Positions 21,281-24,379 of a stretch of DNA of 64,000 bases are shown one piece after another (position 1 is the first letter of the stretch; every line of letters starts with the position of its first letter). Position numbers and translations under genes: made by a program. The DNA comes from Cellulomonas marina (GTDB lineage: Bacteria; Actinomycetota; Actinomycetes; Actinomycetales; Cellulomonadaceae): assembly GCF_900111925.1 (NCBI RefSeq), contig NZ_FOKA01000001.1, positions 372,001 to 436,000 of the forward strand, written 5' to 3'. Below the pieces are notes generated by a model. That model was not told the origin of the DNA. It ran no database searches and was given only the letters and a program-made list of their open reading frames with translations.

Positions 21281-22213
21281 GTGTCCGACGTCCCCCTGCT
21301 GCCGGGCGACCCCGCGCGCGCGCGCCTGCTGGCGGATCTGGCCGAGCACCTCGGCGCCGAGCGGGGCCTGGCACGCCACACCGTGCGCGCCTACCGGGCG
21401 GACGTCGACCACCTGCTGTCCCATGCGTTCCGTCGCGGGAGCGCCACGCTGGCCGACGTGGACCTCGCGGTGCTGCGCTCGTGGCTCGCCGCCATGGCGG
21501 CGGCGCACCTCAGCCGGGGCACGCTCGCCCGGCGGACGGCGGCGGCGCGCACCTTCTTCGCCTGGGCGCAGCGCACGGGCCGCGTCGCCGTCGACCCCGC
21601 CGCCCGCCTGGCCAGCGCCCGGCCCCGCGTGACGCTGCCCACCGTGCTGCCGGCCGCGCAGGTGGCCGCGCTGGTCGACGGCGCGCGCGACCGGGCGGCG
21701 GGCGACGACCCCCTCGCCCTGCGGGACTGGGTCGCCCTCGAGCTGCTCTACGGCACCGGGGTCCGCGTGGGGGAGCTGTGCGCGGCCGACGTCGACGACG
21801 CCGACCTCGTGGGACGGCTCCTGCGGGTCGTCGGCAAGGGTGACAAGGAGCGGGTCGTGCCGTTCGGCAGGCCTGCCGCCGTGGCGCTCGAGCGGTGGCT
21901 CTCGCGCGGCCGGCCCCACCTGGCCGTCGCGGGCTCGCCACCGGCGCTGCTCCTGGGGACGCGGGGCGGGCGCGTGGACCAGCGGCGCATCCGGGCCGTC
22001 GTGCACGCGGCCGCCGCCGGTGCCGCCGTCCCCGACGTGGCCCCGCACGCCCTGCGGCACGCGGCGGCCACCCACCTGCTCGAGGGGGGCTCGGACCTGC
22101 GGTCGGTGCAGGAGGTCCTCGGGCACGCGTCGCTGGCGACCACGCAGCGGTACACGCACGTGTCCGCCGAGCGCCTGAGGGCCGCCTATCGGCTCGCGCA
22201 CCCGCGGGCTTGA
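21281..22213 (+). CDS. xerC: Tyrosine recombinase XerC
   Basis: Site-specific recombinase that resolves chromosome dimers at dif with XerD. The 310-residue protein has an N-terminal SAM-like core-binding domain (HLGAERGLARHTVRAYRADV) and the catalytic domain. Catalytic residues are Arg162 (TGVRVGEL), Lys186 (VGKGDKERVVPF), His256 and Arg259 (PHALRHAAATHLLE), His282 (LGHASL) and nucleophile Tyr291 (TTQRYTHVS). The location beside dprA and far from any integrase-type neighbours supports a housekeeping role. GTG 21281 follows CACAGT by 6 bases, with no Shine-Dalgarno. Confidence 0.95.
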   Translation: MSDVPLLPGDPARARLLADLAEHLGAERGLARHTVRAYRADVDHLLSHAFRRGSATLADVDLAVLRSWLAAMAAAHLSRGTLARRTAAARTFFAWAQRTGRVAVDPAARLASARPRVTLPTVLPAAQVAALVDGARDRAAGDDPLALRDWVALELLYGTGVRVGELCAADVDDADLVGRLLRVVGKGDKERVVPFGRPAAVALERWLSRGRPHLAVAGSPPALLLGTRGGRVDQRRIRAVVHAAAAGAAVPDVAPHALRHAAATHLLEGGSDLRSVQEVLGHASLATTQRYTHVSAERLRAAYRLAHPRA

Positions 22214-22276: not shown

Positions 22277-22305
22277 TTGCTCCTGGCTGTGCGGTCGCCT
22301 AGAGT
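22277..22305 (+). promoter_or_regulatory. Promoter of the riboswitch-sigma transcript
   Basis: TTGCTC (22277-22282) and TAGAGT (22300-22305) are 17 bases apart. The predicted start is around 22311-22313, exactly where the aptamer begins. Confidence 0.55.
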
Positions 22306-22310
22306 CCTCA

Positions 22311-22397
22311 CTGTCAGCGAAACGGCAAACCCTCCGCGAGGGGGGGACGCAAAGCCACGGGACCCTTGAGGTCAGCCGGGCCACCGAACAGACAGGA
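22311..22397 (+). promoter_or_regulatory. Cyclic-di-GMP-I (GEMM-I) riboswitch
   Basis: The leader carries the GEMM-I core. GGCAAACC (22324-22331) precedes a short stem closed by the GNRA tetraloop GCGA (22336-22339). The conserved GGGACGCAAAGCC block (22344-22356) is next. A second hairpin pairs GACC (22361-22364) with GGTC (22370-22373), then AGCCGGGCCACCGA (22374-22387). Terminal pairing CTGTC (22311-22315) with GACAG (22391-22395) is possible, though the register is uncertain. The Shine-Dalgarno AGGA (22394-22397) overlaps that arm and lies 6 bases before ATG 22404. There is no room for a terminator, so control is probably at translation. c-di-GMP is the family ligand; a cGAMP-selective variant cannot be excluded by eye. 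Confidence 0.85.
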
Positions 22398-22403
22398 TCG
22401 ATC

Positions 22404-23330
22404 ATGCCGCAGCCCGGTTCCCTCCTGACCGTGTCCGCCCCGGTCGGGATGTCCCGTGAGACCGCCGCTCTCTCCGTCGCCGCCCGCGTGGCGCCCGCGG
22501 TGACCGCGCCGGCCGGCGTCATCCCCGCCCAGCGCACCCCGGCCGAGCTGCCGACGCCTGACGCCCCGCGCTCGGAGGTCGACACGCTCTGGGCGACGTT
22601 CAAGGAGACGGGCTGCCGCCGCTCCCGCGAGCAGCTGATCCTCCACTACGCGCCGCTGGTCCAGTCCGTGGCCGGGCGCCTCGGCATGCGGCTGCCGAGC
22701 AGCGTCGAGCAGTCCGACCTCGTCTCCTACGGCATGTTCGGCCTCATCGACGCGATCGAGAAGTACGAGACGGACCGCGCCGTGAAGTTCGAGTCGTACG
22801 CCGCCGCCCGCATCCGCGGCGCGATCATCGACGAGCTCCGCTCGCTCGACTGGGTCCCGCGGTCCGTCCGCTCGAAGGCGCGCACGCTCGACCGCGCCGT
22901 GGCCGACCTCGAGGCGCGCCTGCACCGCACGCCGACGCTGCCCGAGATCGCCGCCGAGCTCGAGCTCCCCGTCGCCGAGGTCCGCGCGACCTACAGCCAG
23001 CTCGCCACGACGAACGTGGCCGCGCTCGACGAGCTGCTCGGCGGCGAGGACGGCTCCTCGGCCGCCTCGCTGGGCGACGCCCTGCGCGACGCGCGGGCGG
23101 AGGACCCGGCCGGCTCGGTCGAGCAGCAGGAGCAGGCCTTCCTGCTGTCGCGGGCCGTCGAGCAGCTCAGCGAGCGCGAGCGCCTCGTCGTGGTCCTGTA
23201 CTACTTCGAGGGCCGGACCCTCGCCGAGATCGGCCGCGTCCTCGGCGTGACCGAGTCGCGGATCTCGCAGATGCACACCGCCGCCATCGGCCGGCTGCGC
23301 ACGCGGCTGACGGACGCCGAGGCGGCCTGA
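22404..23330 (+). CDS. whiG: WhiG/FliA-type RNA polymerase sigma factor (sigma-28 family)
   Basis: A 308-residue sigma factor of the WhiG/FliA group. An Ala/Pro-rich N-terminus is followed by region 2 (LILHYAPLVQSVAGRLG, DLVSYGMFGLIDAIEKYE, SYAAARIRGAIIDELRSLDW), region 3 (RTPTLPEIAAELELPV) and region 4 (ERERLVVVLYYFEGRTLAEI, GVTESRISQMHTAAIGRLR). Position between xerC and an M23 gene then rpsB matches the whiG locus of Streptomyces. In a motile unicellular actinobacterium it would drive flagellar and chemotaxis genes; in a sporulating one, sporulation. ATG 22404 is set by AGGA at 6 bases. The upstream c-di-GMP riboswitch is its likely main control. Confidence 0.93.
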   Translation: MPQPGSLLTVSAPVGMSRETAALSVAARVAPAVTAPAGVIPAQRTPAELPTPDAPRSEVDTLWATFKETGCRRSREQLILHYAPLVQSVAGRLGMRLPSSVEQSDLVSYGMFGLIDAIEKYETDRAVKFESYAAARIRGAIIDELRSLDWVPRSVRSKARTLDRAVADLEARLHRTPTLPEIAAELELPVAEVRATYSQLATTNVAALDELLGGEDGSSAASLGDALRDARAEDPAGSVEQQEQAFLLSRAVEQLSERERLVVVLYYFEGRTLAEIGRVLGVTESRISQMHTAAIGRLRTRLTDAEAA

Positions 23331-23420: not shown

Positions 23421-23984
23421 TCACCAGGGCAGCAGGACCACCCGCGGCAGCCGTACCACGAGGGCGCCGGGGTCGAGGTAGCGGTCGCCCTCGCGCACGC
23501 CCCAGTGCACGCACCGGTCCGCGCAGTGCGAGGCGCCGGCGGTCGTGACCGTACCCGCCACCGTGCCCACCTCGTCCCCGACCTCCACCACGGTCCCGAT
23601 CGGGACCGTCGCCGTGACGGGCTCCAGCGTGCTGCGCAGGCCGCCGTCGTGCCGCACCACCACGACCGCGCGCCCCGCGACGACACCCGCGAAGCCGACC
23701 GTGCCGGTCGCGGGAGCGCGCACCACCGTGCCGGGGTCCGCGCGCACGTCCAGGCCCCGGTGCCCGGCGGCCCACGGCTGCGGCGGGCGCACGAAGGGCG
23801 CCAGGACCGCCGACGCCACCGGCAGCCGCCAGCCCTCGGCGGCCGACGCGGTCGTGGCCGGCGCCGCGACGGTCGTCGTCGAGCTCCCTCCGTAGGCCGG
23901 TGCCGCGAGCAGCGGCAGGGCCACGCCGGCGACGAGGAGCGCGGCCATCAGCAGGGGGGTGGCGGGGGAGCGGCGGGGATCCAT
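23421..23984 (-). CDS. Secreted M23/LytM-like peptidase-fold protein, possibly inactive
   Basis: A 187-residue exported protein. A signal peptide (TPLLMAALLVAGVALPLLAA, cleaved near APAYG) precedes an M23 domain. The first zinc motif is present, His75 and Asp79 in AGHRGLDVRADPGTVVRAP, and GTVGFAGVVAGRAVVVVRH follows the fold. The final HxH motif of active LytM enzymes is reduced to CVHWGV with only His160, so the catalytic histidine appears replaced by Cys. This HWG variant is common in actinobacteria; catalysis is doubtful. I chose ATG at 23984 because the signal peptide starts there. Upstream starts would run into the rpsB promoter. A whiG-M23-rpsB order is conserved in Streptomyces. Confidence 0.85.
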   Translation of the reverse strand: MDPRRSPATPLLMAALLVAGVALPLLAAPAYGGSSTTTVAAPATTASAAEGWRLPVASAVLAPFVRPPQPWAAGHRGLDVRADPGTVVRAPATGTVGFAGVVAGRAVVVVRHDGGLRSTLEPVTATVPIGTVVEVGDEVGTVAGTVTTAGASHCADRCVHWGVREGDRYLDPGALVVRLPRVVLLPW

Positions 23985-24113
23985 GGCCGGCACCGTGCCT
24001 GGCCGCAGGCCTCGCAGCAGCGCGCCCCCGCCGGGGCCGTGGGCGAGCACCGCACGACCGGGGCTGGGGACGGATCGGCGACGGGGCCGGTACGGGCACG
24101 GCCTGGCGTCCGG

Positions 24114-24146
24114 TACCCTGGTGACGCGACCGGCCCTCGCCGGTCG
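24114..24146 (+). promoter_or_regulatory. rpsB promoter and 5' leader hairpin
   Basis: TACCCT (24114-24119, in GGTACCCTG) is a plausible -10 hexamer. A perfect 8-bp hairpin (24127-24134 with 24139-24146, loop CCTC) begins about where the RNA would start. The whole 395-bp gap from 23985 to 24379 has no gene; the roughly 250-nt leader may carry ribosomal-protein feedback control, but I do not recognise a described leader. Confidence 0.45.
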
Positions 24147-24379
24147 ACTTCGCACGCCGTCATCCGGTCGCCGTCACCGTCGGGCCCTGCCCGACCACGC
24201 GGTCCGGAACTGGTGCAGGCAACGGTCCGGGTCCGCCCGGCGCCTGCCCGGCTCGGCGTCAGGGGCCCCGGCCGTCCGGTCGGGCCGACAACCGAGACCG
24301 CAGGTCCCGTGCGCGCGACGCGTGCGGGCTCCTGCACGAGTGCGCGTGCCCCGACGGGCGCGCGACGGAAGGACGTGCC

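Follow-up and report, generated by a model that had tools for sequence, protein, structure and literature searches.

Why does a predicted c-di-GMP riboswitch stand directly in front of a WhiG-type sigma factor gene in Cellulomonas marina, what would it do there, and how would it have arrived? Within the window, by which we mean the whole 64 kb stretch of DNA that was analysed, the question turns on the following features.

21281-22213, forward strand: xerC (TIGR02224 XerC, 283.5 bits, below the cut-off of 335.15)
22277-22305, forward strand: probable promoter from sequence reading, with -35 TTGCTC at 22277-22282, a 17 nt spacer and -10 TAGAGT at 22300-22305
22311-22315, forward strand: 5' arm of the outer P1 stem, CUGUC, complementary to 22391-22395 and located where the transcript probably starts or immediately 3' of that point
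22316-22389, forward strand: c-di-GMP-I riboswitch aptamer (RF03167, 59.2 bits; RF01051, 61.2 bits), with contact bases G20 = 22324 and A47 = 22351
22391-22395, forward strand: 3' arm of the outer P1 stem, GACAG, read from the sequence and present in both whiG leaders described below
22394-22397, forward strand: Shine-Dalgarno (SD) sequence AGGA, 6 nt before the start codon and overlapping the P1 arm
22404-23330, forward strand: whiG, FliA/WhiG-family sigma factor of 308 aa (TIGR02479, NF004935, 6pfj/6pfv)

The answer that we favor, with moderate confidence, is that this is a classical c-di-GMP-I riboswitch whose leader was copied in front of whiG from a small-ORF gene and which acts as a translational OFF switch.

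Evaluation of the ORF at 22404-23330 revealed 261.3 bits with the FliA/WhiG subfamily model TIGR02479 (cut-off 189.6) and 340.5 bits with the WhiG equivalog model NF004935, 2.5 bits short of that model's cut-off of 343. Its best solved structures are 6pfj (E = 4e-89) and 6pfv (E = 5e-89), with chains named FliA following at 5e-48, and the assignment of a WhiG/FliA-type sigma gene behind the aptamer, made by an earlier note on this DNA, is upheld by the TIGR02479 score and these two top structures. Gene order across the locus runs dprA, xerC, aptamer, whiG, an oppositely oriented M23-like peptidase gene, rpsB, tsf, pyrH and frr, and the nearest named records are from Cellulomonas. This peptidase gene occupies minus-strand positions 23421-24152 of the window, and its NCBIfam matches are weak.

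Rfam searching revealed a single match within the 64 kb window, at 22316-22389 on the forward strand, for which the top model was RF03167 (c-di-GMP-I-GGC) at E = 2e-11 and a score barely above the gathering score (59.2 versus 59 bits). The earlier note had proposed a GEMM-I core and a check of it with the RF01051 (c-di-GMP-I) covariance model, which matches the aptamer above its curated cut-off (61.2 versus 35 bits), and the core letters that it had read are all in place, with GGCAAACC at 22324-22331, GGGACGCAAAGCC at 22344-22356, AGCCGGGCCACCGA at 22374-22387 and the GNRA loop GCGA at 22336-22339. The bases that contact c-di-GMP in the Vibrio cholerae RNA Vc2 are G20, A47 and C92, as given in the available part of PMC4744006, and placing the positions named there in the window by the C-G-C-A spacing and by the consensus of the model makes G22324 the equivalent of G20 and A22351 that of A47, such that both of these canonical c-di-GMP-I contact bases are present. 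The ACCG at 22383-22386 further puts a C where C92 is expected, with 22384 or 22385 as the candidate.

The top-scoring model differs from the window at one of these bases: the RF03167 consensus, GACGCGAA, has a G at position 47, which is the middle letter of the "GGC" name as we interpret the consensus, whereas the window reads GACGCAAA, with an A there. A GGC-type variant with another ligand was rejected on this base. That the aptamer senses some other dinucleotide, whether the ligand of the GGC variant or 3'3'-cGAMP, would agree with the GGC variant being the top-scoring Rfam family, yet we regard it as very improbable, given the A where the GGC consensus has a G and the G at window position 20, where cGAMP-binding GEMM-I RNAs carry A20. 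Because the GGC signature base is missing and G20 and A47 are present, the window RNA is, judged by its contact bases, a classical c-di-GMP-I aptamer that is predicted to bind c-di-GMP, though the GGC model ranks first. Judging from its 39 GGDEF matches, some of which are fragments of one gene, this genome is probably able to produce the ligand.

Extending the comparison to 81 genomes of the genus revealed 78 whiG hits in 76 genomes. The region upstream was scanned for 77 of these hits (that of genome G053, whose contig begins at the match, was left out) with an aptamer-core pattern that recovered 96 of 97 aptamer loci, and the core was found upstream of whiG at two of the 77, namely the window and C. 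endophytica (NZ_RWJX01000021.1, genome G013). Among 64 named whiG loci, likewise, the aptamer occurs only in C. endophytica. Riboswitch control of WhiG is thus not a general arrangement in the genus, where whiG is a rare and not the usual target of this aptamer family. In C. endophytica the aptamer occupies the same place before whiG, scores 62.2 bits and is identical to that of the window at 70 of 74 bases, at a locus where the two WhiG proteins share 72-77% identity and the DNA upstream of the aptamer has diverged. Such conservation of the aptamer against diverged flanks argues for function.

The probable promoter of the window, TTGCTC-17-TAGAGT, agrees with the consensus at 8 of 12 positions and is weak; a sigma-70 consensus scan at 9 of 12 returned no promoters in the whiG leader region. 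C. endophytica has a -10-like TAACGT at equal distance from its aptamer. The proposed order of promoter, aptamer and sigma gene holds for the aptamer and the gene, and its promoter is a weak candidate that the consensus scan missed. This weakness, together with an aptamer at just two of the 77 whiG hits read, would suit a relic of duplication, in which the aptamer is decaying and non-functional and whiG is transcribed from xerC. We think this highly unlikely in view of the near-identity of the two aptamers between diverged flanks and of the SD and GACAG arm, both of which are conserved in the two species.

If whiG is the exception, Cellulomonas aptamers of this family usually stand before bldC or before the gene of a small protein. 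RF03167 matches were present in 79 of the 81 Cellulomonas genomes, and an aptamer precedes the best bldC hit in 77 of the 81. The bldC count takes the best hit per genome and was obtained by cross-matching coordinates with the 152 aptamers among the matches listed (including two from the C. marina genome), which put one of these aptamers no more than 300 nt upstream in 65 of the 77, while the other 12 were read directly and all have an aptamer; genomes G004, G053, G063 and G070 were omitted, their sole hit resembling a second copy, for which the listing has no aptamer. The BldC of C. marina itself scores 100.8 bits with NF033787 (cut-off 77), and its aptamer locus (L003) lies at C19:16269-16586.

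Behind the 87 other aptamers among those listed, a small ORF was found in 72 cases, all 72 with a [VIL]PxQ motif. The encoded protein, for which we found no prior description, has 38-58 aa and 61 distinct sequences, typically of the form MDQRG...R-x-x-W-A...VPAQRExAA, and three of these proteins that were run against Pfam and NCBIfam returned no match. Median dN/dS of the small ORF was 0.25, with 96 of 97 pairs below 1, these 97 being the subset of all pairs that passed filters on length, identity and dS. The Ala-Ala end of the protein is reminiscent of a degradation tag, and C. marina retains a small-ORF aptamer locus (L004) at C11:174963-175037. The remaining 15 of the 87 aptamers include those of the two whiG leaders, along with others that precede secreted-looking proteins and some further genes. 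To these side cases belongs the fourth aptamer of the C. marina genome (L001, C14:131136-131210), which by eye precedes a secreted-looking protein with PKD-like repeats that has a GTG start and a weak SD; in two near relatives, G048 and G028 (loci L202 and L207), an aptamer has an altered 5' arm and is followed by a gene starting MELH in place of the usual small ORF. A [VIL]PxQR motif was also seen in all three riboswitch-controlled products (29 of 67 WhiG loci, 28 of 30 BldC C-termini and 51 of 61 small ORFs), and its sharing may reflect chance or ancestry.

Which of the two common leaders does the whiG leader resemble? Scored against one profile made from 63 small-ORF leaders and another from 42 bldC leaders, the two whiG leaders favored the former by +30.5 and +33.2 bits, next to control means of +31.3 for small-ORF leaders (one of 63 below zero) and -34.1 for bldC leaders (one of 42 above zero). 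The coding start tells the same way: an M-x-Q-x-G start is shared by both aptamer-linked WhiGs and 41 of 61 small ORFs, and is found in no other of the 67 whiG loci, which are those with an SD-supported ATG and in some cases represent one genome counted twice. Between the xerC stop and the whiG start lie 190 nt in the window and 373 nt in C. endophytica, as compared to 8-23 nt at 36 and 59-259 nt at 8 of the 44 further distinct loci where a start was called. From the small-ORF type of leader and the common M-x-Q-x-G start, it looks as if whiG had captured a copy of a small-ORF leader. The simplest account would be one copying event, in which the leader was placed between xerC and whiG in the common ancestor of the window species and C. 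endophytica. Only the first WhiG codons look borrowed from the small ORF. Fusion of a whole small ORF to the WhiG N-terminus was also considered and rejected, since a GVIPxxR N-terminal extension is common in WhiG of the genus.

How, then, would the ligand reach the sigma gene? The aptamer ends 14 nt before the whiG ATG at 22404, and within this interval the SD AGGA and the closing-stem arm GACAG overlap, where the earlier note had read them as abutting or overlapping. The P1 arm, which the ligand would be expected to stabilize, overlaps the SD and pairs at least two of its bases in both whiG leaders, and pairing of at least two SD bases recurs in 58 of 63 small-ORF and 30 of 42 bldC leaders. 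The SD of bldC leaders thus often lies inside or adjoins the P1 arm. With the SD within the P1 arm, the simplest model is translational OFF at high c-di-GMP. Transcription would begin at about 22310, making the P1 arm CUGUC the 5' end of the mRNA; bound c-di-GMP would close P1 (CUGUC with GACAG) and hide the SD AGGA; and at low c-di-GMP P1 would stay open and WhiG would be made. A start 3' of 22315 would give a whiG transcript that lacks the P1 5' arm, which, given the weak promoter, counts against the model. The earlier proposal of such an OFF switch fits the anatomy, in that the arm overlaps the SD and a scan of the whiG leader found no terminator-like site, and the direction of switching is predicted from this anatomy.

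To what extent the outer stem is a conserved pairing was evaluated from duplexes between the 10 nt preceding the aptamer and the SD region, which gave mean energies of -7.2 kcal/mol for small-ORF (n = 63), -7.5 for bldC (n = 42) and -7.0 for whiG leaders (n = 2), versus -4.2, -4.8 and -4.0 kcal/mol, respectively, with shuffled 5' arms. Taken individually, only 26 of 63 small-ORF leaders, 15 of 42 bldC leaders and one of the two whiG leaders fell within the best 5% of their own shuffles; a plain GUC/GAC core was present in 33 of 63, 34 of 42 and both, respectively. Swapping arms within a leader class showed no significant difference, with 31 of 200 and 51 of 200 swaps reaching the observed mean, and because such swaps are nearly equal in energy, the outer stem has no covariation support beyond its conserved arms. 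In C. endophytica this stem consists of three contiguous pairs (GUC/GAC), then mismatches and a second short block.

Two other modes of action bear on the same leader. Ligand-free folding of 22310-22425 gives a structure other than the aptamer (z-score +0.96), and the minimum-energy fold holds an anti-P3 hairpin in which approximately 22374-22382 pairs with early codons and the SD and start codon lie in the loop. The same aptamer could on this basis work with reverse sign, c-di-GMP turning whiG translation ON by, for example, blocking the hairpin. We judge this unlikely, if worth keeping in mind: the pairing codons GCCCGG are not conserved in C. endophytica, and we found the hairpin unconvincing for that reason; the folding z-score is positive; the SD lies in a P1 arm that the ligand should stabilize, which predicts OFF; and the riboswitch of the Clostridioides difficile flgB operon, which includes the gene of the FliA-family sigma-D, is described as an off switch in the available parts of PMC4744006 and PMC11477304. 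The riboswitch might instead act mainly on transcription or mRNA stability (through pausing, Rho or RNase access), with the SD overlap being incidental. Transcriptional routes other than intrinsic terminators do exist, and the overlap is not universal in bldC leaders, with at least two SD bases paired in 30 of the 42. The leader nonetheless has no terminator-like site, its aptamer stands only 14 nt from the start codon and the overlap of arm and SD recurs in most leaders examined, all of which make this mode distinctly improbable next to translational OFF control.

Beyond the genus, RF01051 matches were found at order level in 41 of 396 genomes and 16 of 109 genera, the own genus included, and at phylum level in 155 of 396 genomes. 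The aptamer family targets bldC once more in G222 and G338, two further genera of the family to which Cellulomonas belongs, through three leaders (L255, L271 and L272), and small-ORF-like genes stand, by eye, behind an aptamer there as well (L267 and L268). Elsewhere, also by eye, the genes behind aptamers encode secreted proteins, response regulators or, in one case, a pilin-like protein. The related genus G338 was seen to hold six c-di-GMP-I aptamers in one genome (L268-L273), of which two precede bldC-like genes and one, by eye, an EAL-like gene. WhiG was not found by tblastn in 79 aptamer loci, a part of all matches that comprised 30 phylum-level loci and 49 further ones, some of the latter from Cellulomonas.

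What a switch on WhiG would govern depends on the work of this sigma factor, which the earlier note took to be flagellar or developmental. Flagellin is encoded in 60 of the 81 genomes; the 21 without it all have whiG, and the five genomes with no whiG hit all carry flagellin, such absences being soft where several genomes are drafts in many contigs. A sigma-28-like CTCA...CCGAT(A/G) element, pre-selected in that it was found by seeking CCGAT near the start, precedes flagellin genes in five genomes read; the exact flagellar consensus TAAAN14-16GCCGATAW had no matches in the C. marina genome. The element is in keeping with a flagellar role, in which a sigma factor of the WhiG type may drive flagellin, yet to regard the role as purely flagellar would be unsafe because whiG persists in genomes that lack flagellin. 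WhiG should have other work besides flagella.

Putting these lines together, we lean toward an RNA-level c-di-GMP regulon in Cellulomonadaceae with bldC and the 38-58 aa protein at its core, from which the small-ORF leader (aptamer, SD and first codons) would have been copied before whiG in one lineage. The copied leader would have given whiG its own promoter behind xerC and would have subjected it to the signal that bldC and the small protein also receive. In Streptomyces, c-di-GMP acts on development via the proteins BldD and RsiG. If our reading is correct, BldC and WhiG, two classic Streptomyces developmental regulators, are both under RNA control by c-di-GMP here, and riboswitch leaders can spread within a genome by copying; the small protein family is a further object of study. 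The open-access literature, searched at the level of titles and abstract starts and with subscription papers mostly outside its scope, held no report of a c-di-GMP riboswitch on whiG or bldC. As far as these searches show, what is new is the pair of targets WhiG and BldC, the direct placement of an SD-overlapping leader on a sigma gene and the probable capture of that leader.

Comparison with known systems places the locus between several precedents. With the RF01051 family, the window shares the aptamer, the G20 and A47 contacts and the GNRA loop, and it differs in its target gene whiG, with no other such whiG among the loci read apart from that of C. endophytica. Riboswitch control of a FliA-family sigma is already known in kind, since a c-di-GMP-I riboswitch controls the C. 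difficile flgB operon including the FliA-family gene sigD (available text of PMC11477304). Both are c-di-GMP-I RNAs upstream of a FliA-family sigma gene, and the C. difficile one is described as an off switch, as is proposed here. The C. difficile RNA, however, is transcription-terminating and stands ahead of a 29-gene flagellar operon according to the same available text (PMC11477304), whereas the leader in the window lies directly on the sigma gene and has no terminator-like site. The closest parallel in the regulator itself is the RsiG-(c-di-GMP)2-WhiG switch, for which the available part of PMC8325347 describes Streptomyces WhiG as held by RsiG with c-di-GMP and the RsiG-WhiG switch of Rubrobacter as one that seems to control pili. 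The sigma factor belongs to the same family (6pfj/6pfv), and high c-di-GMP lowers WhiG output there (PMC8325347), as it would in our proposal, in which the earlier note saw a possible second route from c-di-GMP to WhiG beside RsiG. RsiG acts on the protein after its synthesis (available part of PMC8325347), whereas the proposed Cellulomonas switch would act at the RNA level, and if so, one messenger has reached the same regulators by different means, through RNA in one case and through protein in the other.
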